Assembly: GCA_944324425.1 (NCBI GenBank)
Contig: CALUWE010000014.1
Location: 1 to 47,393 of the forward strand
Direction of reading: 5' to 3'
Length of the DNA stretch: 47,393 nucleotides
From: Candidatus Gastranaerophilales bacterium
GTDB lineage: Bacteria; Cyanobacteriota; Vampirovibrionia; Gastranaerophilales; Gastranaerophilaceae
Every line of letters begins with the position of its first letter. Within the stretch, counting starts at the first letter, position 1. Made by a program: the position numbers and the translations under genes. The notes beneath the pieces were generated by a model, which saw only the letters and a list, made by a program, of their open reading frames with translations, did not search any database and had not been told where the DNA came from. Of the stretch, positions 3,930 to 20,438 are shown in pieces.

Positions 3930-4154
3930 CTAAAAATTTTTGTTGTCAGGATAATTTATAAAATAAGCGTTTATAGTATCAGAATCTCGCCTTAAATTCT
4001 TAACTATTGGAGTAAGATTGTCTAACTCTTCAATCTCTTGTTGTGTCCTGCAAAAATAATCAATAACAGTAACTGTATTATAAATCCGCTCAGCTAGTTT
4101 TTCTAACTTCCTAAAATCTTTTTGTTTAATTCTGTATTTCTTACTCTTACTCAT
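3930..4154 (-). CDS. Small basic hypothetical protein
   Basis: A 74-residue protein preceded by a strong ribosome site (AAGGAGG, 5 nt from the ATG). The N-terminus is very basic (MSKSKKYRIKQKDFRKLEK) and the rest is probably helical. I recognise no family. It is 58 nt downstream of the last gene of the restriction/HNH unit and in the same direction, so it could be its distal member. Its ribosome site and start are within an inverted repeat (4153-4179). Confidence 0.55.
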   Translation of the reverse strand: MSKSKKYRIKQKDFRKLEKLAERIYNTVTVIDYFCRTQQEIEELDNLTPIVKNLRRDSDTINAYFINYPDNKNF

Positions 4155-4212: not shown

Positions 4213-5004
4213 TTAATTGATACCAGGTGGTTTTGGGGGGACAAACCCTTTTTCGTATAAGTTTCTCATTCTCATATTATATTCTTGTTTTATTCGTTTT
4301 GAAACTTCAGGAGTTTCAATAATATGGGCATAAGTAGGGTTTAAAAAGTATGTTTCATATTGCAACTTATATTTATTTGTAATTCTTGTAGAATCAACCA
4401 TAACCTCAATACGATAGCCAGCCATTTGAATAATATATTTTTTATATTTTGAAGTTTTTCCCTTTGCAATAAGAACTTCTTCATTTATATCTTCAGTATA
4501 ACTATTTTTGTAAATTAAAATTTTGAATAGCTCTGGATACTCTCTTTCCCCTATCAGTATATCAAACGCTTTTCTTTCATAGCCTCCAAGATTTATATTT
4601 GTCCATTCTTCTAATTGAGAGATAGAAGCCCGCCACAGGATTGAAATAAAAAAATTACGAAGTTTTGTATAATCAAAATTGTTACTATCAAGCTGATAAA
4701 TTTTACCTTGAGGATAGGTTTGTATATATTTGTATTTGTTAAAATCCCCAAATAATACACGATAACCCTCTTTATCAAATTCTCCTAATATATGGTTATC
4801 ACAATCCTTGCATAAAATATTCGAATCATATCCACCCTGCTGTTGATAGGTATATTCCCCAGTTTTAGAATTTATGCATAAGTATTTGTCATTTTTTCTT
4901 GCTAAATAAAAATTTTTTGGAATAATATGTGCTTTTATTAGTTTCTCTTCTTGTCCACAGAACTTGCATATCCCTATATTTTGCTTTGCAGATTCTTCTT
5001 TCAT
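4213..5004 (-). CDS. HNH-like zinc-binding protein, last gene of the composite defence unit
   Basis: A 263-residue protein starting 1 nt after the preceding stop. The N-terminal ~75 residues form an HNH/treble-clef fold: C13xxC16, AHIIPKNFY with H26, then a CKDCDN knuckle at C65/C68. This AHIIP-type family is common near restriction and defence genes. The remaining ~190 residues are an uncharacterised, Tyr- and Ile-rich domain ending in a proline-rich tail. A nuclease role is plausible from the family; whether it cuts DNA or RNA, or only senses it, cannot be told. It differs clearly from the HNH protein encoded just upstream, so the unit contains two distinct HNH proteins. Confidence 0.65.
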   Translation of the reverse strand: MKEESAKQNIGICKFCGQEEKLIKAHIIPKNFYLARKNDKYLCINSKTGEYTYQQQGGYDSNILCKDCDNHILGEFDKEGYRVLFGDFNKYKYIQTYPQGKIYQLDSNNFDYTKLRNFFISILWRASISQLEEWTNINLGGYERKAFDILIGEREYPELFKILIYKNSYTEDINEEVLIAKGKTSKYKKYIIQMAGYRIEVMVDSTRITNKYKLQYETYFLNPTYAHIIETPEVSKRIKQEYNMRMRNLYEKGFVPPKPPGIN

Positions 5005-5005
5005 A

Positions 5006-5881
5006 TTAAAAAAAACTCATATTCATAGATTTCACTTCGTCCCAAAGTGCCATAAGTTTACATTCATCATACAGAATATTTTCAATAAATTCTTGCCAAA
5101 TTTGTGGACTATTATTTAAAGAATAGCCATCATTAATCTCATGCCAGTTACTTGAGACCATATTTTCAAGCAATCGTTCTAAAGATTCTGGTGAACGAAT
5201 ATCAGAATGTCTAATTATATTGAATAAAATGTCATAACAGCGTGATGCCATTATTTTAATTCTATTTTCAATTCCGTAAAAACTTAAAAATTCTTTTGTA
5301 GTTTCACTACAATTTTTATTAATGTGAATGTTTAAATTGTCATCATAATCTATGGTGTATAATTTCCATAATTCAAGTGGATGCATGTTATCTGTATCTA
5401 TGTGTAAATCTTCTAATACAGTTCTAAAATTTTTGATTGGCTCTGAAGTAAAAAACTCATCTTTTTTGAGTGCTTCATTGCATTCTTTACAACACGGTGC
5501 CCAATTATCTATATGTAAAGTAAATTGAGGAAATTTACTTTTAGGAAAAATATGTTCAATATCAGCAATAATATATGTTTCATTGTGTGTATTACGAGTT
5601 TCTTCTAAAATTTGTCCACAAAAACAACATCTTGGAGTTGTACCATTAAAATAATCTTTTATAAACGCTTGTTTAAAAGATAAATGACCAAATTTATCTC
5701 TAAATTCAGAACTGCTACAAGTAATTTTATCAAATTTATTAATTATTTTTGTTTTTAAATCTTCTGAAATATCTTTTACTGTCCATGAAAATTGCTCATA
5801 GTCGCTTTTTAGGATACTAGTCCCTGGAATTTTAAAAAACCTTTCTTTTAAAATTTTTTTAAAAAGATTTTTATTTTTCAT
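5006..5881 (-). CDS. HNH endonuclease, Septu PtuB-like
   Basis: A 291-residue protein whose start overlaps the ATPase gene by 11 nt. The HNH core lies at residues ~85-140: C85xxC88, DIEHIFPKSKFPQF with E109-H110, N126, and CCKECNEALKKD with a second zinc knuckle (C131/C134). The pairing of an IEH(I/F)FPKSKFP-type HNH protein with an ABC-like ATPase is the hallmark of the Septu (PtuA/PtuB) anti-phage module, also found as effector in some retrons. The C-terminal 150 residues are helical and may contact the ATPase. I infer that it is the DNA-cleaving effector of the unit. No reverse transcriptase lies nearby, so a retron is not indicated. Confidence 0.75.
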   Translation of the reverse strand: MKNKNLFKKILKERFFKIPGTSILKSDYEQFSWTVKDISEDLKTKIINKFDKITCSSSEFRDKFGHLSFKQAFIKDYFNGTTPRCCFCGQILEETRNTHNETYIIADIEHIFPKSKFPQFTLHIDNWAPCCKECNEALKKDEFFTSEPIKNFRTVLEDLHIDTDNMHPLELWKLYTIDYDDNLNIHINKNCSETTKEFLSFYGIENRIKIMASRCYDILFNIIRHSDIRSPESLERLLENMVSSNWHEINDGYSLNNSPQIWQEFIENILYDECKLMALWDEVKSMNMSFF

Positions 5882-7247
5882 TTTCTAACTCTTGATCTTT
5901 TATTTTAAAGTTACAACACATATCAGCTTTTTCTAATTGATTAATTTTACTTCTAATTTTCCAACGCCATTCACCTGCACCAACTTGGTGTAGTAGTTTG
6001 TTTAATTTTTCAACATTATCATTATTTAAAGCTTCTTTAATTTCATCTTTTGCTCTTTCTCCAATATCAGAATCCATTTCAAAAAGAGTTCTACCTATAT
6101 CTATTACATTACCCCCAAAGGTGCAAAACGGTATTGTTGTTGCTTTAACCCCTCCATGTTGTGTTTTATACAATCTGTGTAATTCTTCTTTTTTTAAATC
6201 TGTTACTAACATTGCGGAATGAGTCGCAATAAAAATATCGTGTTGAACTTTTGCGTTAGAAAAAATTTTGTCTATTAAATTTATAAAATGTATCTTCCAG
6301 TTTTCATTAAAATGAGTTTCAGGTTCATCTAAAAGAATTAAATATTTTTCTGGAGTTTCTACATTTTTATTTTCAATACCTAAAATAATTAATAAAGCAA
6401 GCCTGCTAAAAACACCTAATTCTCCATCACTTAATGATTGTTCTGTATAATATAGACCAGGTTTTTCTGATTTTTCGTAAAGAAAACCTGCATCTACTAT
6501 GTGTGGAGCTTCTAACATTGTATAAAGAATATTAAGCGGCTTATTTTGGACATTAGTTGTAATATCTTTGTCGATTTTCCAAAAACATTTTATACTATTT
6601 TTTTCGATACTTTTGTAATCAGGTTGCTTAATATTTAAAATTTTTATTACATCATCGAGAGTGTAACCTTCATCGATATTTATTTCTAACCATACAACTA
6701 CTGGATTAATTGTACTTTCACAATCATCATTTATATTACAACCTGACGTTAACTTTAGAATATCTTTAATATTAGAATCTTCCGTGTATTTTGTAAGATT
6801 AGTCCCGTATGATGTAAAAAATATTGCAGGAAGAATATATTTTATATTTTTTTCATTAAAATCCATTATATTTTGGCTAAAGTCACTACTATACCTTTTT
6901 GTTGAACCTGTGTATAGCCTAAAAATTTTATCCCACAAAAACTTTTTAGGTTCATCTACCATTTCTGTATTTTTAATGTTAGGTTTAGCACATAGAGTCT
7001 TAGTACCATTCTCTGTTTTAATTTTTATTTGATATTTAAATGAAGTTGCATCTTCTTCTGACTCTTTTGATTTCAAATTATTAGTTCCAATCTCAAATAA
7101 TGCATCCAATAGGCAGCTTTTACCTGTACCATTTTTGCCAATTAAAACATTTAAGTTTATATTTGATATAGTATCCTTTTTATTTTCAAATTCCATTTCA
7201 AAGTTTGTGAGATTACAAAAATCCTCAATTTTTATATATGAAAACAT
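5871..7247 (-). CDS. SMC/RecF-like AAA ATPase, Septu PtuA-like
   Basis: A 458-residue ATPase. Walker A GKNGTGKS is at residues 37-44, the ABC-type signature LSDGE at 272-276, Walker B LILLDEPE at 303-310, and an H-loop ATHS at 341-344. This is the OLD/RecF/PtuA-type head-domain layout with a short insert rather than a long coiled coil. In Septu, the ATPase assembles with the HNH nuclease and controls its activity. Here it starts 3 nt after the methyltransferase-like gene and overlaps the HNH gene. A GGAGG lies 11 nt before the ATG. The residues needed for ATP hydrolysis all appear to be present. It could also be classed simply as a defence-associated AAA_21 ATPase. Confidence 0.75.
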   Translation of the reverse strand: MFSYIKIEDFCNLTNFEMEFENKKDTISNINLNVLIGKNGTGKSCLLDALFEIGTNNLKSKESEEDATSFKYQIKIKTENGTKTLCAKPNIKNTEMVDEPKKFLWDKIFRLYTGSTKRYSSDFSQNIMDFNEKNIKYILPAIFFTSYGTNLTKYTEDSNIKDILKLTSGCNINDDCESTINPVVVWLEINIDEGYTLDDVIKILNIKQPDYKSIEKNSIKCFWKIDKDITTNVQNKPLNILYTMLEAPHIVDAGFLYEKSEKPGLYYTEQSLSDGELGVFSRLALLIILGIENKNVETPEKYLILLDEPETHFNENWKIHFINLIDKIFSNAKVQHDIFIATHSAMLVTDLKKEELHRLYKTQHGGVKATTIPFCTFGGNVIDIGRTLFEMDSDIGERAKDEIKEALNNDNVEKLNKLLHQVGAGEWRWKIRSKINQLEKADMCCNFKIKDQELENEK

Positions 7248-7250
7248 TGT

Positions 7251-9164
7251 CTATTTATCCTCCATAAAGTTTATTTTGGGACGATAAGTATTGTAAATAT
7301 ATAAATCATCTTTTTTTGTATTTGGATTTATTACTTTTTTCAACAACCCTAATTCTGAAAGAAGTTTTACTGCTAGTATAATTTCTTGTTTTGGATGATT
7401 TGATCTCAATACATCAATATTGTTTTCATCCAAAATCCAATATTCACAATATGCATTGTAAACATCTTTATAAATTTGATTATTCAAAAATGGAACAAAA
7501 CTATCTTTTAAATACAAATCAGCAAATTGTCTAACAAAATAATCTTTGCGAACTCTATACCTATTATCCAGCGTCTGTTCTATGTTAATTTGTAAAGTTT
7601 TTGGATCAAAACGCGATTGTTTATATAACTCAAGTAATATAACAAAAATATTTTTTAAATTATCTTCTTTAATTTCATCTGTATTTAATTTTCCGAAATT
7701 TATATTAGAAGATATAGAAATATAATTTTTAATTTGATTTAATATTTTAGCTTCAGGTGTATTTATATGCACTTCTTCTTCAAACCAAAAAATATTATCT
7801 TTATTATCATTGTAATCTATATCACTTTGATTTTCTTGCAAATTTGTATCTTGAACCAAGTTATTAATACGATAAGCTAACTCTAATATTACTTTTTCAT
7901 TTTCTAAAATTTGAGTAGTTAATGTTTTTAAAGGCAAAACTTTCTTTATTTTGTTTTTGTCTAAAATACGTGAGGGCATGATTATTCTATATAAATTATC
8001 AAAATTCTCTCTACTTATTGTGTTTTTGATAATATTTTGATTTGCATTAACATAATTACTTTCTGAGTTAAGGATATTAACTAATTCTTTAATCCCTTCA
8101 GTATTATATATTTTTATTAATGAAATATCATTATTTAATTTTTCTTTTACTTTAGTTCCAACAAGTATAACTAATCTTGATAAATTAGAGTTTTCATATG
8201 ATATTACATAATTTAAGTATTCTTTGATTAATAATTCTCTTAAGTTAGGATATTCTTTGGTATTATTATTTAATATACTTTCTGGAAAGATTCCAATAAA
8301 AGAAGATTTTGAATCTGCATTTATTAAATAATTTATTAAAAATAAAATATCAGATGATGATTCATTTATTTCATTATTTTTAAATATTTTTTTGTACAAA
8401 TCTGTATTTTTAAAAAAGGCAGGATGTTCTTGTATACTTTTTGCACCAAGAGGAGGATCAAAAATAAAGACTGGATTTTTTTCTTTCCACTCTGGAAATT
8501 TCAAATTAGAATAATCGTTTCTTATACTATCATTAAATTTTCTGCTTTCAAATTCTATTTTTACAATAGGAAGCTTATATTGATAATTTAACAAGGCATC
8601 AGCCAAATATCTAACATTAAGATCAATATCAAAACCATAGTTATATAAATCTATATCCTGTATATTCTTATATAAATTATTTCCCAATACAGTATTTGAT
8701 GTTTGTTTTTTTATATTAACAAGAGGCATGTTTTCAAGCAATTTACCTGTACCTAAAGCCAAGTCTATATATGGCCCATCAGAAATACATCTTGCAACTT
8801 TTTGTATTATCCTTACTAAAGATTCATTTGTAGAGTGATTAGTATTGGTAATATCAAGATTATTCCAAGTTTCAACGAGCCAGTTTATAGCTTTTTTATA
8901 TTGAAGTTCTGATAACGGTAACTCATTATTTTCAGTATCATAAAAAATACGAAACATAGAATCAGATTTATCAATATTATTAATTAATAAAGGTTGAGAT
9001 TTTATGTTTTCAATTGTTAACTTGTTTATATGCAACTTTTGATAATGATTTTTAGTTAATTGTGCCAAATAAGCTATAATTTCTTCTTTAGAAGCTATTT
9101 TTTTTAATGATAAATCATTATATACTGCTTTCAGTCTATTGATAAATACTTCTTTTTTAGCCAT
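7251..9164 (-). CDS. Divergent N6-methyltransferase-like protein with altered catalytic motif
   Basis: A 637-residue protein. I prefer the ATG at 9164, 7 nt after GGAGGT, over a TTG at 9179. It overlaps the hsdS stop by 8 nt. The central part has the order of motifs of gamma-class N6-adenine methyltransferases: a SAM-binding-like YIDLALGTGKLL (residues ~132-143), an acidic YGFDIDLNVRYLADALL, and FIFDPPLG at ~234-240. The catalytic tetrapeptide is DPPL, where active enzymes have N/D/S-PP-F/Y/W; the adenine-stacking aromatic residue is therefore missing. The long C-terminal region ends in a winged-helix-like segment. It may be an inactive methyltransferase used for DNA recognition or sensing in the Septu-like half of the unit (inference). 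The DNA is more AT-rich than hsdM. Confidence 0.65.
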   Translation of the reverse strand: MAKKEVFINRLKAVYNDLSLKKIASKEEIIAYLAQLTKNHYQKLHINKLTIENIKSQPLLINNIDKSDSMFRIFYDTENNELPLSELQYKKAINWLVETWNNLDITNTNHSTNESLVRIIQKVARCISDGPYIDLALGTGKLLENMPLVNIKKQTSNTVLGNNLYKNIQDIDLYNYGFDIDLNVRYLADALLNYQYKLPIVKIEFESRKFNDSIRNDYSNLKFPEWKEKNPVFIFDPPLGAKSIQEHPAFFKNTDLYKKIFKNNEINESSSDILFLINYLINADSKSSFIGIFPESILNNNTKEYPNLRELLIKEYLNYVISYENSNLSRLVILVGTKVKEKLNNDISLIKIYNTEGIKELVNILNSESNYVNANQNIIKNTISRENFDNLYRIIMPSRILDKNKIKKVLPLKTLTTQILENEKVILELAYRINNLVQDTNLQENQSDIDYNDNKDNIFWFEEEVHINTPEAKILNQIKNYISISSNINFGKLNTDEIKEDNLKNIFVILLELYKQSRFDPKTLQINIEQTLDNRYRVRKDYFVRQFADLYLKDSFVPFLNNQIYKDVYNAYCEYWILDENNIDVLRSNHPKQEIILAVKLLSELGLLKKVINPNTKKDDLYIYNTYRPKINFMEDK

Positions 9165-10377
9165 TTGCATCACCTCCAAATTTGTGGCGAGTTAGTTCGC
9201 CGGTGAAGGTGTGGTGAAGGAGGGATTGGAACATGGTTTTGGCATTTTCCAGTTCAGCTTGCTGTGTTTTTATATATGCCTCTATCTCTTGTGCTTTTTC
9301 TGCAAAAAGATCCTGCTTAGGTTTTGGTGGTTTAGGTATAATTATATTTTCAAAATTACCTTTATTTAATATTGGTAAAGTTGTATGACTTGCTTTGTTT
9401 CTAATTAAAGGAGCAATTTGCCTAAATAAATATAACCCAAAAATATCATTAATACTTTCGTCCCATTCAATTGCATTAATCTGTTGATTAAAACAACTAT
9501 CAACAATTGCTTTATCAACTTTTCCTATTGTTGCACCAATACAACAAACTAAAGTACTTCCAGCTCTAACTATCCTACTATTTTTAGCACCTTCTTGCGT
9601 AACATAACGACCATATTTATCTTGTCCTGATTCTAAATCTGCAGGTGTTATGAATGGAATATCACCACCAAACATATTTTCTTTTTTAGACGAAGGTGTT
9701 GAGCCTGTTGTAACTTTTCCCAAGTTTTTAATTTTAAATAATTCATAACTATTGGTATTTTTAGACATATCGCCGAACATTTCTTGGAAGAGAGCGGGGA
9801 TGAGGGATTGGGCACTTTCGATACAGGCAGTGCGTAAACGAATTACTTCATTCGCTGCATCTAATACATCTACTATCTCTTGTTGCTCTTCTAATGTTGA
9901 TGGAATTGCTATATCTAAATTTTCAATATATTCTTTTCTTAAATTATTGATATTTATACCTGTAGATAATTCTGAAATTTTTGTTCTATAAAAATCGGTT
10001 TGAAAATAGTAACCAATAAATTTAGGATTAATAATTTTTGGACGAACAATACTACAAAAAGCTCCAAATGAACAATTTAGGTCTGAACTACTTTGGGCAG
10101 CTTTACCTACTAAATCCTTACTCCCACTTGACATAGCAACTAAAATATCGTTCTTTTTTATAATTTGTTCATCTTTAATATTTTTATTTGAAACATATAT
10201 AACTTTATCAAAATTTATAGTTCCATTGGAAGATATATTATTCGCTCTTAATAAAGTCGTAGTATCAGGAGTTACAACATCATAAGCTTCATTTGAGTTA
10301 TAATTAACTCCTCTAATAATGTCAATATAATTTTTTAATTTATCTTTTTTCCAATTTTTAGGTATATTTTCAAACAT
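9157..10377 (-). CDS. hsdS: Type I restriction-modification specificity subunit HsdS
   Basis: A 406-residue HsdS with two target-recognition domains (residues ~5-155 and ~210-360), each followed by a conserved helix: QEEIVDVL...SLIPALFQEMF in the centre and AELENAKTMFQSLL near the end. It pairs with HsdM to choose the methylated sequence and with HsdR for restriction. The start overlaps hsdM by 8 nt. The conserved helices are noticeably more GC-rich (about half GC at 9181-9240) than the very AT-rich recognition domains, as expected when recognition domains are exchanged by recombination. Both conserved blocks share a 10-bp direct repeat, GAGGGATTGG (9220-9229 and 9802-9811). No spare hsdS copy is in the window. 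Confidence 0.92.
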   Translation of the reverse strand: MFENIPKNWKKDKLKNYIDIIRGVNYNSNEAYDVVTPDTTTLLRANNISSNGTINFDKVIYVSNKNIKDEQIIKKNDILVAMSSGSKDLVGKAAQSSSDLNCSFGAFCSIVRPKIINPKFIGYYFQTDFYRTKISELSTGININNLRKEYIENLDIAIPSTLEEQQEIVDVLDAANEVIRLRTACIESAQSLIPALFQEMFGDMSKNTNSYELFKIKNLGKVTTGSTPSSKKENMFGGDIPFITPADLESGQDKYGRYVTQEGAKNSRIVRAGSTLVCCIGATIGKVDKAIVDSCFNQQINAIEWDESINDIFGLYLFRQIAPLIRNKASHTTLPILNKGNFENIIIPKPPKPKQDLFAEKAQEIEAYIKTQQAELENAKTMFQSLLHHTFTGELTRHKFGGDANG

Positions 10378-14800: not shown

Positions 14801-15209
14801 GTTTTCTACTTACAGGTCTTTCATAAGGCTTAATAAGAGAGCTATCTCCGCCACAGTTAGTTACATAATGCCAAACACACAAACCCCAAGCATATTTTAG
14901 AAGAATATGTGCATTTTCTTTGCTCCCAATATTTGCATGAGTTGCTGAATTTCCCTTTTTTCTTATAATATGAAACACATCCATATATTTAGAATCAATA
15001 TAGGGTTCTAATTCTTTTAAAAGATCTATTTGTTTTTCATAAGACTTTTCTTGGAAATATCTAAAATAAATATCTTTTGCGATATATTCTGCAATTAAAC
15101 GCAATTTTGTAAGACAAGATGCAGCATCAGTATCTATTAACTCCTCTGCTATAGCTCCAAGTTCAGCCAATTCAGGATATTTATTTTTTAAAAATTCAAA
15201 ATTGCTCAT
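11832..15209 (-). CDS. hsdR: Type I restriction endonuclease HsdR (EcoEI-like)
   Basis: A 1125-residue motor/nuclease subunit and first gene of the unit. I start it at the ATG at 15209 (MSNFEFLKNKYPEL), with AGGGA about 8 nt upstream; the earlier ATG at 15218 has no spacing for a ribosome site. Domains in order: DUF4145-like N-terminus (~15-115), coiled coil (~135-175), HsdR_N nuclease with D251 and E266-A-K, helicase lobe 1 (Walker A MATGTGKT ~378-385, DESH, TATP), helicase lobe 2 (ARSHKHGE, QMIGRGTR), and an EcoEI-type C-terminal domain. It translocates and cuts DNA lacking the HsdM methyl mark. All key residues look intact. It is divergent from the operon starting at 15336. Confidence 0.93.
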   Translation of the reverse strand: MSNFEFLKNKYPELAELGAIAEELIDTDAASCLTKLRLIAEYIAKDIYFRYFQEKSYEKQIDLLKELEPYIDSKYMDVFHIIRKKGNSATHANIGSKENAHILLKYAWGLCVWHYVTNCGGDSSLIKPYERPVSRKLLLEKELEEAKKRSAELEAELKVKEEQLSKVTAASKEEFINNQNENRETTDRLGDLTEAQTRNYIIDEMLIEAGWNIKKVENFNKEIKEYDTEEVKREVAVNNLPNTPSGKGYIDYALYDATGKIIAIIEAKKTRRDPKEGKTQAFYYANSIEMETGFRPLIFYTNGFETYFWDDVNYSPRRIYGMFSKDDIETRLFQRQNRMPLENVEIDTSITNRDYQISAIRKTYEAFSVGQRKALIVMATGTGKTRTAMSTIKGLVNANWVKRILFLVDRDELRKQADSAFNKHLNSLSRVLLNSETRGNMNSKVYIATYPAMQKAYQLYTPGFFDLIIADESHRSIYNVYGEIFKYFDAFQIGLTATPVDYISRNTFSMFDTEDGNPTFSYELDDAIKEKYLVPYKVQKVQTQFLERGIKYSDLSQKQKQELAEQVEDPEKFDFESSELESQITNKDTNRKIIKNLMDNGLRDSNGRLGKTIIFARSHKHGEILEDLFNQMYPEYGWKYARLIDSHDPNASLLLDDFKGEEQENNINIAISVSMLDTGVDVPEILNLVFAKPIYSKVKFWQMIGRGTRLCENLLGPGKDKEGFVIFDHYSNFEFFGENPEGYVPKEQLSLYERLFMSRISLAVTAKELGDEKILNKTVELLKNDIKTLPKKSVDVQEHAMKLDEILKTDYYWQDLNDDFLHVLDTIVRPLMKRHQTTFSQDRAMQFEINVIQLEVLELERLILQQRQIETTQQDKKIELVKNKIRKSVFHLRETINKVKEKTKTINKVKSQNFGTPFNFDEMETIKDELAPIMQYSQRSALDDDIIEIDITDNVEINEELQLNLFAAFGEGFKYNIEQFLNKIASENIVLQKIKRGQKTTEQDIQSLVSIVLEQNPHFTLKQLEKLYPDKAQDIDLLIRSIIGVDENEVHSRIKNFIEKHTTLTSVQLQCLKLIENQLKTNRYFNFESLYEQPFTRLGFDIFSETELNELKQVLDGYIVKEVAG

Positions 15210-15230
15210 AGAAAACATCCCTTTTTATTA

Positions 15231-15239
15231 GTGTAACAC
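15231..15239. promoter_or_regulatory. Small inverted repeat in the divergent region before hsdR
   Basis: GTGTAACAC is a perfect 4-1-4 inverted repeat 22 nt upstream of the chosen hsdR start. It could be an operator for hsdR, but it is short and may be chance. Confidence 0.2.
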
Positions 15240-15256
15240 AAAAATCCAAAGATACA

Positions 15257-15283
15257 TGTAAGAAAATCTAACACGTTGTAAGA
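15257..15283. promoter_or_regulatory. Direct repeats upstream of the ACP-XRE operon promoter
   Basis: TGTAAGA occurs at 15257-15263 and 15277-15283, exactly 20 bp (two helical turns) apart, just upstream of the -35 box at 15288. The wider copies are similar but not identical. Such spacing suits binding of two dimers on one DNA face, so this may be the operator of the XRE protein encoded at 15638 (inference). Confidence 0.35.
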
Positions 15284-15287
15284 TAAC

Positions 15288-15316
15288 TTGACAAAAATAA
15301 AAAAATAATTTATACT
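15288..15316 (+). promoter_or_regulatory. Sigma-70 promoter of the ACP-XRE-ImmA-TS operon
   Basis: Consensus -35 TTGACA (15288-15293), a 17-nt spacer and -10 TATACT (15311-15316). Transcription would begin near 15322-15324, almost on the ribosome site AGGAGGT (15324-15330), giving a leader of only about 12 nt before the ATG at 15336. This is the strongest promoter match seen in the island, as expected for a promoter held by a repressor. Confidence 0.75.
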
Positions 15317-15335: not shown

Positions 15336-15626
15336 ATGACTAAAGCAAATATAAAACTCAAACTTATAGAAATAATTGAGCACTACTACTCTCAAACATA
15401 TCCTAGTAATTCTATGCCAGATATTTCATCAAGTAAAGAGGCATTAATTGACCTACTTGCTATTGATAGTTTAATGAGTGTTGAACTCACTATAGACATT
15501 TTAGACGGCTTCAATATTAACGATGAAAAAATTCAATCTATATTTACAGATAATGATAAGTTAAAATACCCAAATTATTTAAATATTGATCAAGTTGTTG
15601 AGAAAATTTCTACTTATCTAAATTAG
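15336..15626 (+). CDS. Acyl/peptidyl carrier protein-like protein
   Basis: A 96-residue protein with an excellent ribosome site (AGGAGGT). Residues 40-60 (LLAIDSLMSVELTIDILDGF) match helix II of acyl carrier proteins, where the Ser of DSL (Ser45) receives the 4'-phosphopantetheine arm. The last ~15 residues (IDQVVEKISTYL) match ACP helix IV. It is slightly longer than the usual ~78 residues because of an extended loop at 64-82. As the first gene of a repressor/protease-controlled operon, it is unlikely to be the fatty-acid ACP. It may carry an acyl or aminoacyl group for the modifying enzymes downstream (inference). No phosphopantetheinyl transferase or acyl-ligase gene is in the window. Confidence 0.65.
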   Translation: MTKANIKLKLIEIIEHYYSQTYPSNSMPDISSSKEALIDLLAIDSLMSVELTIDILDGFNINDEKIQSIFTDNDKLKYPNYLNIDQVVEKISTYLN

Positions 15627-15637
15627 GAGTCAAATAT

Positions 15638-15985
15638 ATGAAAGAAAACGAGAAACGAAAAATTATTGCAAATAGAATATCACTTGCAAGAGAACGGGCC
15701 GGATTAACTCAAAACCAGTTAGCTAAATTATTGAATATCCCAAGGCCATCGGTAGCAGAAATTGAATCTGGAAAACGAAAAGTTTCTGCAGAAGAATTGA
15801 TCTCAATGTCCGACATATTTGAAGTTGATATTAATTGGCTTGCAGGTAAAGGAGAAAATAAAAGTGATGAACAAAGAGATAAAATACAGTTAGCAGCACG
15901 AAATCTATCAGGGCTTAAATCCGAAGACATAGATAAAATAGTTGATCTTTTAAATTCTTTAAAACCCAAAGGAGATAGTCATTAA
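15638..15985 (+). CDS. XRE-family transcriptional regulator
   Basis: A 115-residue Cro/CI-type regulator with a helix-turn-helix at residues ~8-62 (ARERAGLTQNQLAKLLNIPR, then SVAEIESGKRKVSAEELI). The helical tail (~75-110) probably dimerises. It ends in a TAATG overlap with the ImmA/IrrE-like gene, a pairing seen in ICEBs1-type and phage switches, where the protease cleaves the repressor to release expression. It therefore probably represses its own operon from the promoter at 15288. It starts 11 nt after the carrier-protein gene, behind TAGGAG. Confidence 0.85.
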   Translation: MKENEKRKIIANRISLARERAGLTQNQLAKLLNIPRPSVAEIESGKRKVSAEELISMSDIFEVDINWLAGKGENKSDEQRDKIQLAARNLSGLKSEDIDKIVDLLNSLKPKGDSH

Positions 15986-16836
15986 TGGAAAATCGTGATC
16001 AATTGGTTTTAAAAGCATTGAAAGCAGCAGAACAGCTTAGGAAAAAACTTAACATTAACTCTCTGTCCATAATAGATCCTGTTGATATTGCCTTAAAAAT
16101 GGGTTGTTCAGTGAGATACGAAAACATAGAATCACTAGAGGGTATGTATGCAAAAGAACCAAGCCCAACAATAATTATAGGGTCATATCGTCCAAATGGA
16201 AGAAAAGTTTTTACTTGTGCACATGAATTAGGACATCATTATTTTAATCATGGCACAAAGATTGATCAACTAACAACTCAAAATGTTTCAGGTTTTGACT
16301 CTGATGAATTTTTAGTAGATTGTTTCGCAGGTTTTTTATTGATGCCAAAACGAATAGTAATGAATATGTTATCAAAACAAAACATCAACATCAAACATGT
16401 AACTGCCATGGAAATTTTCAAACTTTCCTCAATTTTTGGTGTAGGTTATGGAACAATCCTAAATCATTTAACATACTCGCTTAAAATGATTACAAAAGAG
16501 CAACTTCGGAATCTGAAAAAATTTACACCAAAAGATATAAAAAGACAGCTTGGTGTTGATACCTCTAACGATTTAATAATAGTTGATAATAATTGGCCGA
16601 ATAAACCAGTTGATTTACAAGTTGATGATTATATCGCTTGTCCTAAAAGTTTTAAAATTGATAATCATTTTTTAGAAATATCATATGAAGCTAAATCAGC
16701 TGAATTTTCTTTTTACAAAGCAAAAAATGTGGGCTATTCAAGAATTTTGAATAATAACTGGGCGGCAAATATAAGAATATCAAGAAGAGAATATTCTGGT
16801 TTGGCAAGATATAGATTTTTAAGCGAAGAGGATTAA
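15985..16836 (+). CDS. ImmA/IrrE-family metallopeptidase
   Basis: A 283-residue protein with the zinc-protease motif HELGHHYFNHG (residues ~78-88) and a downstream acidic zinc-ligand region (DEFLVDCFAGFLLMP). The first ~180 residues are the ImmA/IrrE domain. The C-terminal ~100 residues are an additional, uncharacterised beta-rich part that could sense the signal. In related systems the protease inactivates the XRE partner encoded beside it. Here the two genes overlap, with AGGAGA as ribosome site. I infer that stress or infection activates this protease and derepresses the operon. It could alternatively act on another protein. Confidence 0.85.
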   Translation: MENRDQLVLKALKAAEQLRKKLNINSLSIIDPVDIALKMGCSVRYENIESLEGMYAKEPSPTIIIGSYRPNGRKVFTCAHELGHHYFNHGTKIDQLTTQNVSGFDSDEFLVDCFAGFLLMPKRIVMNMLSKQNINIKHVTAMEIFKLSSIFGVGYGTILNHLTYSLKMITKEQLRNLKKFTPKDIKRQLGVDTSNDLIIVDNNWPNKPVDLQVDDYIACPKSFKIDNHFLEISYEAKSAEFSFYKAKNVGYSRILNNNWAANIRISRREYSGLARYRFLSEED

Positions 16837-16839
16837 GTT

Positions 16840-17592
16840 ATGATACATACTATAGAAGAAAAAGATTTACCAACTGCTTGGGCTAAAGCATTCATAAAAT
16901 GCTATAATGCTCCAAGAGGAAATATTTTACCTATGATTGTTAAGTTTGATGCAACTGCTGATGAGTTCTGGGATAAAGATATTATCAAAATTTTAAATCT
17001 GAATCTCAAGCGTACTAAGAATTTTCCTATAGAAACTGTAAGAAATACCATATTCCCGGAATATTTATGGCAAACATCAAATAATGATCGTGAAACTTTA
17101 TATGCAAGATATTTGAAAATATGGCCTAAGTTGAAAAAGACTCAACAAAACCGATTAGGCAGTTATTTTAAAAGATTAATTGCGTTCGGCGATGTCAAAA
17201 ATCAAAAAAATCAGTTAGAAGAAATTATTAAAACATGGAATCAGGGTACTCATAGAAAATCAGCTCTTCAAGCTACAATTTTTAATCCGTATGAAGATAT
17301 ATCTAAAGCTCCTAGAAGGGGGTTCCCATGTTTGCAACAAGTGGTCTTTGTCCCCGAAGGATCTAATGGGCAAGAAGGTCTTACTATTGTTGGTTTTTAT
17401 GCTTCCCAAGACTGTTTTAGCAAAGCTTTTGGTAATTATTGGGGGTTATATTCTCTTGGTAAATTTGTTGCTGAGGCAATGGGTATCCCGTTTAAAAGTG
17501 TTTGTTGCATTGCTAGCAATTATGTTTTAGGTAGTACAAAAAAGAATTTAAAAGAACTTTATAACGCAATTGTTAATATTATGAAAGAATAA
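16840..17592 (+). CDS. Thymidylate synthase-fold protein (possible pyrimidine hydroxymethylase)
   Basis: A 250-residue protein. GAGG lies 8 nt before the ATG, 3 nt after the protease gene. The C-terminal half follows the thymidylate synthase superfamily motif order: NQLEEIIKTW, HRKSALQATIFNPYED (residues ~138-153; compare SRR...WNP), a catalytic Cys in GFPCLQQ (Cys164), LTIVGFYASQD (~181-191; compare LYQRSxD), and FGNYWGLYSLGKFVAEAMG (~197-215; compare FNIASYALL). The final GDxHxY-like motif is replaced by IASNYVLGS. The N-terminal ~110 residues do not match thymidylate synthase. A role on a dUMP- or dCMP-like substrate, adding a one-carbon unit, is inferred. Phage hydroxymethylases of this fold start base hypermodification pathways. 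Confidence 0.65.
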   Translation: MIHTIEEKDLPTAWAKAFIKCYNAPRGNILPMIVKFDATADEFWDKDIIKILNLNLKRTKNFPIETVRNTIFPEYLWQTSNNDRETLYARYLKIWPKLKKTQQNRLGSYFKRLIAFGDVKNQKNQLEEIIKTWNQGTHRKSALQATIFNPYEDISKAPRRGFPCLQQVVFVPEGSNGQEGLTIVGFYASQDCFSKAFGNYWGLYSLGKFVAEAMGIPFKSVCCIASNYVLGSTKKNLKELYNAIVNIMKE

Positions 17593-17615
17593 TGAAGTAT
17601 TAGTAGGTTAATAAA

Positions 17616-18620
17616 ATGAAAATAAAATATAAAGACAAATATAATATAGATTCTTGGTATCCAGTAAAAACAACTGAAGTTTTTGATGCATATTGGTATT
17701 TTGCAGCAGAAAGACAAGAAATATTTTTTAAAAAATTTTATAATGAAAAACAACCTTGGACACATGATGAAATTTTAAATACATACAAATTTACGAATGC
17801 TTATCGTGCTTCAGATCGTGTAAGCCAATATTTAATACGAAATGTTATTTATTCAAACAAATATAATGAAGAAGATTTATTGTTTAGGATATTATTATTT
17901 AAAATTTTTAATAAAATTGATACATGGGAAATATTACAAGACAAACTAGGCGAAATATTGTATAAAACGTATTCCTTTGAGACTTACGATAAAATATTAC
18001 AAGAAACGATGAAAAAAAAGTCTATATATTCTGCAGCATATATAATGCCATCAGGTGGTAATTGCTTTGGTTACCACAAAAAGCATCAAAATAACCTAAA
18101 AATGCTTGAAGAAATCATAAGTCCAAAATCATTGATAAAAATAGTGAAGGCAAAGTCTTTACAGCAAGTTTTTACTCATTTGAGAGAATTCCCAATGTTA
18201 GGTGATTTTTTGGCATTTCAATATGCTATAGATATAAATTATAGTGAATTAACTAACTTCTCCGAAATGTCATTTGTAGTTCCTGGTCCAGGTGCATATT
18301 CTGGAATTCAAAAATGTTTTTCAGATTTTGGAGGATTAAATGAGGTAGATTTAATATATTTAGTTGCAGAGAGACAAGATGAAGAGTTCAAAAAACGTGG
18401 TATAAAATTTAGGACGTTAGGAGGTCGACAACTACAATTAATAGATTGTCAAAATCTTTTCTGCGAAATTGATAAATACTCAAGAGTTGCATTTCCTAAT
18501 GTAAAATCAAAACAAGCAAGAACCAGAATAAAACAGAAATACAAATGTAATTCTTCAAAAATTGATTTTTATTTTCCACCCAAATGGAATATTAATGATA
18601 ATCTTGGTATAAAGAAATAA
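17616..18620 (+). CDS. Protein of the 5-hmU DNA kinase / thymine pyrophosphorylase helical family
   Basis: A 334-residue protein. Its N-terminal pattern (YWYFAAERQEIFFKKF, PWTHDEILNTYKFTN, YRASDRVSQYLIRNVIY) and its central FPMLGDFLAFQYAID with VVPGPGAYSGIQKCF resemble the helical (HhH-glycosylase-like) domain of 5-hydroxymethyluracil DNA kinases and alpha-glutamyl/putrescinyl-thymine pyrophosphorylases, known from phages with hypermodified thymidine. I identify it from memory of those families, not from a search. No classical P-loop GxxxxGKS is visible, so the phosphate-transfer mechanism, if any, is unclear. Its position next to a thymidylate-synthase-fold gene fits a shared modified-pyrimidine pathway. 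The ribosome site is weak (TAGGT). Confidence 0.55.
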   Translation: MKIKYKDKYNIDSWYPVKTTEVFDAYWYFAAERQEIFFKKFYNEKQPWTHDEILNTYKFTNAYRASDRVSQYLIRNVIYSNKYNEEDLLFRILLFKIFNKIDTWEILQDKLGEILYKTYSFETYDKILQETMKKKSIYSAAYIMPSGGNCFGYHKKHQNNLKMLEEIISPKSLIKIVKAKSLQQVFTHLREFPMLGDFLAFQYAIDINYSELTNFSEMSFVVPGPGAYSGIQKCFSDFGGLNEVDLIYLVAERQDEEFKKRGIKFRTLGGRQLQLIDCQNLFCEIDKYSRVAFPNVKSKQARTRIKQKYKCNSSKIDFYFPPKWNINDNLGIKK

Positions 18621-18632
18621 TAGGAGATCACA

Positions 18633-19643
18633 TTGAAAAATTTTCATCTTAAAGAATTAAAAATAGAACTTACAGATGCATGCAATCTTTGTTGCAAGCA
18701 TTGTTCTAGTCTGGCGAAGAAAATATCTACAAAAGAGATTTCCCTTAATAAAGCTAAAATAATTATTGAAGAAGCAATAAGAATGGGAGTGGAAGAAATT
18801 AAATTTTCTGGCGGGGAACCTCTCTTATGGAAAGGAATTGATGAATTAATAAATATTTTAAATAATAATAATATTAAAACTTGTGTTTATACAACTGGGA
18901 ATATATCATTATTCAATGAAAAGATAGAAATACTTAAAAGTATGGGATTAAATAGGATAATATTCTCCTTATTTTCATCAGATAGAAAACAACACGAAGA
19001 TGTAACAAAAATAAAAGGTAGTTATAATAAAACTATATCTGCGATAGAAAAATGCGTGTCTTTGAATATTTCAACGGAAATTCATTTTGTCCCATTAGCA
19101 AGTAATTATAAAGAATTACCTCAAATAGCTTGGCTTGGAAAAAAAATAGGTGTAAGTAATATAAGTATATTACGTTTAGTACCACAGGGAAGGGCAACTA
19201 AACATAAAAAAGAATTCCTCAGTATTGAGCAGAATATTGAATTGCGAGAAATTATTATTACTCTCAGAAAACAAGGATATAATATAAGAGTTGGTTCTCC
19301 TTATAATTTTTTAGGTCTTGAAGATAGTAAACCTTGTAATTCCGGTACTGAAGAATTAACAATAAGACCAGATTTGACCATATGTCCTTGCGATGCTTTT
19401 AAAGGAATTACACCAAAAGATTTAGGAATTAAAGATAAGTACTATTCATTAAAAAATAACTCTTTAAAAGAATGTTGGGAAAAATCAAATTATTTAAATG
19501 AAATCAGAAAATTTTCAACTGATAAAAATTATAAACAGTGTACAACATATAAACAATGTAATTGTGGATGTCTTGGTCAAAAATTTTATTCAATAGGATA
19601 TCTTAATTATTTATCAGATCCGATGTGTTTAAAGATACAATAA
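18633..19643 (+). CDS. Radical SAM/SPASM protein
   Basis: A 336-residue enzyme starting at TTG (18633), with AGGAG 6-7 nt upstream. The cluster motif is C17xxxC21xxC24 (TDACNLCCKHC), followed by FSGGEPLL (~58-65). The C-terminal part has a cysteine-rich SPASM-like region (ICPCDAF, QCNCGC, PMC) that would bind an auxiliary iron-sulphur cluster. Such enzymes usually modify peptides, and less often nucleosides or sugars. No small precursor peptide gene is evident here, so the substrate may be the modified base or the group on the carrier protein (inference). It is the last gene of the operon and converges on the recombinase gene with a 14-nt gap. Confidence 0.85.
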   Translation: MKNFHLKELKIELTDACNLCCKHCSSLAKKISTKEISLNKAKIIIEEAIRMGVEEIKFSGGEPLLWKGIDELINILNNNNIKTCVYTTGNISLFNEKIEILKSMGLNRIIFSLFSSDRKQHEDVTKIKGSYNKTISAIEKCVSLNISTEIHFVPLASNYKELPQIAWLGKKIGVSNISILRLVPQGRATKHKKEFLSIEQNIELREIIITLRKQGYNIRVGSPYNFLGLEDSKPCNSGTEELTIRPDLTICPCDAFKGITPKDLGIKDKYYSLKNNSLKECWEKSNYLNEIRKFSTDKNYKQCTTYKQCNCGCLGQKFYSIGYLNYLSDPMCLKIQ

Positions 19644-19657
19644 AATTTCTTGTATTT

Positions 19658-20197
19658 CTATAAATAAAAATTCATATAACTTTCGTCGATTGTGTCTTGT
19701 TCGATGCCGATGTAGCGGAGTGTTACTGATGGCGAGGAGTGGTTAAAGATTTTTTGCAGGAGTACTATATCATTATATTTTTTATAATGATGATACCCGA
19801 ATGTCTTTCTCAGTGTATGTGTTCCGATTCTCTCCTTCACCCCAACGGCTTGTGTAGCCTTATTCAAAATTCTATATGCCTGTGCTCTATCAAGCCTGCA
19901 ATGTTTTTGTGTATAAAATAGCGGTTGTTCCCCAGGCAAACCTTCTACAAATAAATCAATCTCCTCCTTCAAAAACCTATTAAGCGGGAATTTCTTATAC
20001 TTATTCGTCTTTTTCTCTCTAATTTCAATATGATCTCGGCCCTTTACATCCCCAACATCAAGCGATAATATATCAGATATTCTGAGCCCTGTATTTATCC
20101 CAAAACTAAAAAGCAGTACATCTCTTGGCTTTTTTGCCAAATATTTTTTAATCTTTTGAATATCTTCTATCTTTTTTATGGGTTGTACTACATTCAT
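19658..20197 (-). CDS. Compact tyrosine recombinase (catalytic domain only)
   Basis: A 179-residue integrase/XerC-type catalytic domain without the N-terminal arm or core-binding domain. I choose the ATG at 20197 (AGAGAG ~9 nt upstream) over TTG at 20203. Catalytic residues are all visible: R39 in TGLRISDIL, a lysine in EKKTNKYKKF, H127-x-x-R130 in HTLRKTFG, H153 in FNHSS, and Y162 in LRYIGI. Recombinases of this short type are common as integrases or DNA invertases in gut bacteria. It adjoins the hairpin- and repeat-rich stretch at 20204-20636, which may hold its recombination site. Whether it moves the island or inverts a segment cannot be told. Confidence 0.88.
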   Translation of the reverse strand: MNVVQPIKKIEDIQKIKKYLAKKPRDVLLFSFGINTGLRISDILSLDVGDVKGRDHIEIREKKTNKYKKFPLNRFLKEEIDLFVEGLPGEQPLFYTQKHCRLDRAQAYRILNKATQAVGVKERIGTHTLRKTFGYHHYKKYNDIVLLQKIFNHSSPSVTLRYIGIEQDTIDESYMNFYL

Positions 20198-20438
20198 TTT
20201 CAAACTCTCTTAATCACTCACAATGATTGCTTCTTTCCTATAAAAAGTAAAGTCGAATGACACAAAATTTAAACACTTGAGTTTGCGGAAAAATTGACAT
20301 TTTTCTCGCAAACTGCGTGGAACGGTTTCGCATCAAGTTGTGTGCTATCCCGCACACGACCTGATGCTCACACACCTAAAGTCGGATTTGAAAAATCTCA
20401 AAAATTTGTCAATTTTTGGATTTTTCCACATCCTCATT

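Follow-up and report, generated by a model that had tools for sequence, protein, structure and literature searches.

According to the accessible part of the DefensePredictor paper (PMC13092281), thymidylate synthase (TS) and 5-hydroxymethyldeoxyuridine (5hmdU) kinase domains were validated in defence in Escherichia coli in 2026, among defence systems with TS, 5-hmdU DNA kinase, deoxynucleoside monophosphate (dNMP) kinase and NMAD domains, and further systems with aGPT-Pplase, MazG, MazG-C, dUTPase and uracil-DNA glycosylase (UDG) domains were predicted. Thymidine hypermodification in phages ViI, M6, phiW-14 and PaMx11 draws on a TS-family enzyme, the PF18723 family and a nucleoside triphosphate (NTP) pyrophosphohydrolase (PMC6449724, PMC5977210), and the proteases CapP and PprI, when activated by single-stranded DNA (ssDNA), cleave their repressors (PMC13373217, PMC10904395). 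Here we describe a cassette that has features in common with all of these. It occupies positions 15336-19643 of a 47,393-nucleotide stretch of DNA from Candidatus Gastranaerophilales bacterium (assembly GCA_944324425.1, contig CALUWE010000014.1), termed here the window, whose closest matches also place the organism in Candidatus Gastranaerophilales. The cassette comprises six co-directional genes for an acyl-carrier-type protein, an XRE repressor, an ImmA/IrrE metalloprotease, a TS-fold enzyme, a PF18723 protein and a radical SAM enzyme. We read it, at best, as a CapH/CapP-type derepressible pyrimidine-modification defence cassette, belonging with the nucleotide-modification defences.

With the systems in the accessible part of PMC13092281, the cassette has in common TS, the 5hmdU-kinase label, MazG/MazG_C, UDG and dNMP kinase; neither a carrier protein nor a phosphopantetheinyl transferase nor ImmA is mentioned in that text, though the cassette may overlap with one of its systems. 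With phage hypermodification it shares the three components named above, but it is bacterial and repressed, has a carrier protein, lacks a P-loop kinase, and its TS-fold family lacks the folate-linked Asp. Like the CapH-CapP controllers and PprI-DdrO, it has an XRE repressor and an M78-type protease near the operon promoter; here, however, the carrier gene precedes the pair, a nucleotide-modification pathway is governed, and ssDNA-activated cleavage is putative. PADLOC, NCBIfam, PHROGs and Pfam model the parts and returned no model of the whole set, and we found no description of the carrier-protein gene set in the literature searched, whose coverage of directly relevant work is incomplete. 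The original prediction for this DNA, made from its letters and open reading frames (ORFs), had named no described system with this gene set as known; in the literature searched this holds for the carrier-protein set, but it has to be toned down for the TS and 5hmdU-kinase domains, which the accessible part of PMC13092281 already reports as validated in defence.

Gene content and distribution of the cassette

All six genes lie on the plus strand, with intergenic gaps of 11, -1, 3, 23 and 12 nt in the ORF list. The first encodes a 96-aa acyl-carrier-type protein (15336-15626) with its phosphopantetheine serine, Ser45, in an IDSL motif; it matches carrier proteins of the PDB at E 2e-8 by profile and more weakly, at E 4e-5, as a single sequence, and Ser45 is conserved in 77 of 77 homologues. 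A 115-aa CapH-like XRE repressor (15638-15985; Pfam HTH_3, E 1.5e-14) and a 283-aa CapP-like ImmA/IrrE (M78) metalloprotease (15985-16836; Peptidase_M78, E 1.3e-9) follow, the latter with an HEXXH motif invariant among nine aligned homologues. Next come the 250-aa TS-fold enzyme (16840-17592; TS superfamily, E 4.7e-12), the 334-aa PF18723 (HMUDK_hel) protein (17616-18620; E 4e-103, 345 bits against a curated cut-off of 25) and the 336-aa radical SAM enzyme (18633-19643; Radical_SAM, E 2.9e-21; SPASM is matched weakly), which has a TTG start with AGGAGA upstream and a C-terminal Cys cluster. The tight operon, the carrier with its DSL serine, the regulator and HExxH protease, the TS-fold protein with Cys164 and the radical SAM/SPASM enzyme had all been proposed in the original prediction, and each assignment holds; both the TS-like and the kinase-like proteins match their superfamilies.

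Relatives on plasmids were sought by tblastn with the TS-like protein, while scanning of genomes yielded 140 relatives, from which 80 loci were retained; a nine-sequence TS alignment was judged too diverse to serve as a scanning profile. The resulting 91 loci (the window, plasmids, genomes and two viral contigs) are phylogenetically non-independent and were all gathered through the TS gene, so that the presence of TS is given by construction and the co-occurrence of the other genes is the result. XRE and ImmA genes stand upstream of TS in every locus and the carrier gene in all but one, L087, where its place is taken by a 94-aa ORF that was not scored but has a DSI motif like that of carriers; the order is the same in 90 of the 91, more than chance would give. 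Homologues of the six genes thus co-occur widely, and the TS tree spreads the cassette over about ten phylum-level groups, with cyanobacterial, rhizobial, sphingomonad and Streptomyces plasmid copies sharing the gene order. The TS-like protein had no match in phages by tblastn. A Rhizobium cassette (L113), considered as possibly TS-less, contains a TS-like piece (E 2.9e-8) that is apparently broken or split.

Two positions of the cassette are filled by alternative proteins. PF18723 lies near TS in 81 loci, and 8 loci that lack it have a UDG-superfamily protein instead (Pfam UDG, E 9.5e-5). Likewise, MazG-MazG_C (PF18722, E 3e-84) lies near TS in 78 loci and the radical SAM enzyme of the window type, which occupies the same place, in 4, and no locus has the two together. 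Because three of these four are near-identical Gastranaerophilales copies and the fourth, at 40% identity, is from Phycisphaerae, the radical SAM version is found in two lineages. Ten loci carry a papain-like protein between ImmA and TS, with Q, C, H and N conserved.

Promoter, operator and the repressor/protease pair

Upstream of the carrier gene lies a sigma-70-type promoter, TTGACA-17-TATACT (15288-15316, plus strand), which has 11 of 12 consensus matches and is the best match in the region. Just upstream of its -35 box is an operator (15258-15283, plus strand) with half-sites GTAAGA (15258-15263), TCTAAC (15267-15272) and GTAAGA (15278-15283), one mismatch away from the conserved GTAAGA-N3-TCTTAC-N5-GTAAGA. 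The core GTAAGA-N3-TCTTAC occurs upstream of the carrier gene exactly in 54 of 90 loci and with at most one mismatch in 67, as against 0.1% of mononucleotide-shuffled sequences and none of 90 segments inside immA, and most aligned examples have the third half-site 5 nt further on. Across 1.5 Mb, near-exact copies stand at the carrier promoter 60 times and elsewhere once, 43 nt into a carrier ORF. The operator of the relatives is placed downstream of TTGAC, about at the expected -10 position, and it is absent from clade B and Actinobacteria loci. A second operator-like site in the window (4012-4026, GTAAGATTGTCTAAC, one mismatch) may be due to chance in AT-rich DNA.

The best PADLOC match of the XRE protein is capH (E 9e-16) and that of the protease capP (E 9.7e-18), and the XRE protein is the probable binder of the operator. 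Together with the near-consensus promoter and the conserved operator, these matches support the earlier claim of an inducible system.

Predicted chemistry of the cassette enzymes

The AlphaFold2 model of the TS-fold enzyme (predicted local distance difference test, pLDDT, 94.5) is matched by Foldseek to MilA and TS with a probability of 1.0, and its best structural match (Z 17.7), the phage dCMP hydroxylase AfhB, which depends on flavin adenine dinucleotide, is tied with MilA (17.3), ThyAs scoring about 16. The equivalents of Cys146 and Asn177, Cys164 and Asn199 in the window, are invariant in 47 of 47 homologues, while the position of the folate-linked Asp169 (E. coli numbering) holds Asp in one, the window itself, Gln in 19 and Tyr in 14; the His147 position is Leu or Met in the family, and most of the main clade has Ala in place of Arg166. 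This pattern lends no support to a canonical folate-dependent hydroxymethylase. AfhB of phage HY126 (PDB 9iqc, 9iqu) and the CMP hydroxymethylase MilA (5b6d) share the TS fold and the catalytic Cys, and AfhB likewise lacks Asp at the Asp169 position in the alignment. Opposite the Asn of our enzyme, however, the profile alignment places an Asp in AfhB, consistent with the reading of cytosine there and uracil here, which suggests dUMP rather than dCMP as substrate. Because Cys and Asn are invariant, the Asp169 and His147 positions are changed and AfhB has this Asp, the enzyme likely acts on a dUMP-like substrate with non-canonical chemistry. It is unlikely to be the TS of the cell, since its own genome encodes ThyX and gave no PF00303 match in a profile search.

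Genes for loading the carrier recur beside the cassette: AcpS is found near it in 49 loci, while L089 (Pfam ACPS, E 6e-11) and, by eye, L087 have a longer transferase of the same superfamily, one that is Sfp-like. This recurrence of dedicated transferases suggests that the carrier needs phosphopantetheinylation and, because two transferase types recur with a carrier whose serine is invariant, that the holo-carrier matters. The TS-fold enzyme might then perform carrier-dependent chemistry at C5 of dUMP, for example by taking an acyl or aminoacyl group from the holo-acyl carrier protein (holo-ACP), with an abnormal base made on demand as a form of immunity; this is a speculation that we think has a modest chance of being right, and we know of no described precedent for such TS-fold chemistry.

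For gene 5, only part of the predicted 5-hmU-kinase likeness stands: membership of PF18723 is clear, but GxxxxGK[ST] is present in 1 of 43 members of the family and, as the Walker A motif is not conserved, a P-loop kinase was rejected and "kinase" is a mere family label. The best structural alignments of the AlphaFold2 model (pLDDT 90) are those with DUF2419 (queuine salvage), AGOG, the phage 5-PmdU glycinyltransferase PUGT (Z 9.5) and HhH-GPD glycosylases, which points tentatively to a glycosylase-like protein. The family is present in 428 phage records, adjoining an NTP pyrophosphohydrolase in phage phiMAM1 and lying within a TS/glucosyltransferase cluster in LuckyBarnes; on plasmids it also stands beside TIR, Nmad2 and CBASS-type phospholipase genes. 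A Gloeothece plasmid (L114, 114-4660) has in one row a CBASS-type phospholipase, PF18723, a MazG-type NTP pyrophosphohydrolase, a ThsB-type TIR and Nmad2, and a Parabacteroides plasmid (L112, 5334-10492) has TIR, Nmad2, PF18723, radical SAM and a 521-aa protein of unknown function, a related but distinct defence-like operon.

Radical SAM enzymes are also part of the M6 and ViI hypermodification pathways. Gene 6 was considered as a prokaryotic viperin and rejected (NirJ2, E 2.6e-32, against pVip, 8.5e-16); among 72,556 plasmid records it had one match below 1e-20, adjoined by a PF18723 gene. Recurrent neighbours of the cassette include dCTP deaminase-like genes in 25 loci, dTMP kinase in 13, a DUF1643-like gene (named by eye) in 9 and ThyA-like genes in 8. 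The TS fold, the dCTP deaminase, dTMP kinase and MazG neighbours, and the relatives in phage hypermodification support the earlier proposal that the cassette makes or installs a modified pyrimidine. In two loci a metallophosphoesterase is fused to the TS-like protein (L063, 11481-13643; L023, 10864-13038), with a distant match, below cut-off, to NF053862 (DS9_1_antiphage).

Mobility, proposed function and alternatives

The six genes are 99.4-100% identical at the DNA level to those of two Gastranaerophilales of other genera (L026 and L027), and the flanks are less so (HsdR 96%, HsdM 91-97%, a tyrosine recombinase 90-93%, HipA 88%), with sharp changes in identity at about 15183-15287 and 19684. 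Such identity within sharp edges, between flanks of 88-97%, shows that the cassette moved recently and largely on its own, and the differing flanks argue against contamination, though at least the two relatives are metagenome assemblies. For Pseudomonadota, six changes are required on the TS tree; transfer is plausible, although long branches are uncertain. The tyrosine recombinase (19658-20203, minus strand) lies outside the cassette and has a second copy, 91% identical, in the window genome (G000:C9). HsdS (9157-10377) differs from that of the relatives while HsdM and HsdR are 91-97% identical, a possible case of specificity switching. The genes beyond it on the minus strand (4213-9179) may form a second defence system; they encode an AAA_15-type ATPase, an HNH-containing protein, a protein of 642 aa that no Pfam family matches and another of 263 aa whose function is unknown.

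Taken together, we picture a widespread, laterally moved cassette, repressed under normal conditions, whose enzymes would make an abnormal pyrimidine nucleotide and act on it once it is in DNA; its most likely role would be damage-triggered anti-phage immunity, a reading in which our confidence and our doubt are about equal. The XRE protein would occupy the operator and keep the promoter shut until a trigger, for instance the ssDNA that activates CapP and PprI, leads ImmA to cleave it and the operon fires. Cys164 of the TS-fold enzyme would then attack C6 of a dUMP-like substrate whose base is read by Asn199, and C5 would receive a group other than methyl by a route that does not use ordinary folate chemistry, with holo-ACP as donor or scaffold. 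In the relatives, dCTP deaminase, MazG and dTMP kinase would supply dUMP, clear canonical nucleotides and take the product to the dNTP. The window has the radical SAM enzyme in place of MazG, and there it would tailor the C5 group. The modified base could enter DNA under replication and be processed there by PF18723, the glycosylase-like protein, or in clade B by UDG, spoiling replication of the phage and perhaps of the host. A defence role is suggested by the analysis of context, namely the type I restriction-modification (RM) genes that adjoin the window cassette and TIR and Nmad2 elsewhere, and by the TS and 5hmdU-kinase domains that the accessible part of PMC13092281 reports as validated; GajB, DpdF and DruE genes lie near relatives.

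Several points weigh against this account, the activities of which are predictions. A PADLOC and Pfam scan of 89 neighbours returned a mix of defence, conjugation and metabolic genes, the defence genes being a minority, and as the counts have no control set we claim no enrichment. The fold of gene 5 is assigned tentatively because its glycosylase likeness is at fold level, with Foldseek E-values of about 1 and Z of 8-10, a score that helical proteins inflate, and because by sequence it does not match PUGT (E 0.21), which it was rejected as an orthologue of. The cassette itself holds no carrier-loading enzyme, and neither the genome of the window nor seven of the eight other genomes of the genus searched yielded a PF01648 transferase, so that the carrier may stay apo here. 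Cellular ACP normally requires a phosphopantetheinyl transferase, and that of the window genome may have diverged, or the assemblies may lack it.

The cassette might instead hypermodify the thymines of its own carrier element or plasmid and so escape restriction as phages do, a use we consider unlikely. The PF18723 family does occur in phage lineages with thymidine hypermodification, several relatives are on conjugative plasmids, and a type I RM system lies beside the window copy; yet many copies sit on large contigs without plasmid sign, the window unit moved alone and not as a whole element, and a repressed promoter with a protease switch suits an emergency response, which would serve to sabotage DNA under replication better than to mark the element all the time. 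In another reading, which seems to us unlikely as well, the cassette makes no DNA base but a modified nucleotide that carries a message to an effector, in the manner of CBASS or Thoeris. This would fit the company of PF18723 in Gloeothece and Parabacteroides described above, its place beside TIR and DUF4231 in Natronomonas, and the cassettes flanked by Nmad2 and a TIR-like ORF (L028) or by TIR (L085), but the cassette has no constant effector gene, and the window genome gave no Nmad2 match in a weak test to which no control responded.

Mobile elements commonly carry XRE-ImmA pairs, several of the relatives come from plasmids, and HipBA and VapC genes lie nearby, as would befit an addiction module in which the pair governs a toxic nucleotide pathway and so stabilises plasmids and islands; six to eight biosynthetic genes would be unusual for such a module, there is no obvious antidote, and the invariant carrier serine and the transferases point to a synthetic pathway, which makes it very unlikely. 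A spare TS operon of ordinary nucleotide metabolism, for which the fold and the dTMP kinase, dCTP deaminase and ThyA-like neighbours of relatives could speak, is least credible of all, given the lost Asp169 and His147 positions, the ThyX of the host, the patchy distribution and the recent movement as a unit.

Damage-triggered immunity through an abnormal pyrimidine is directly testable in laboratory strains by way of the operator and of the Ser, Cys and Asn residues that never vary. If it is true, bacterial immunity would gain a controlled, multi-step pathway of nucleotide modification, the biochemistry of carrier proteins would be linked to the chemistry of DNA bases, and the thymidine hypermodification of phages would have a bacterial counterpart.

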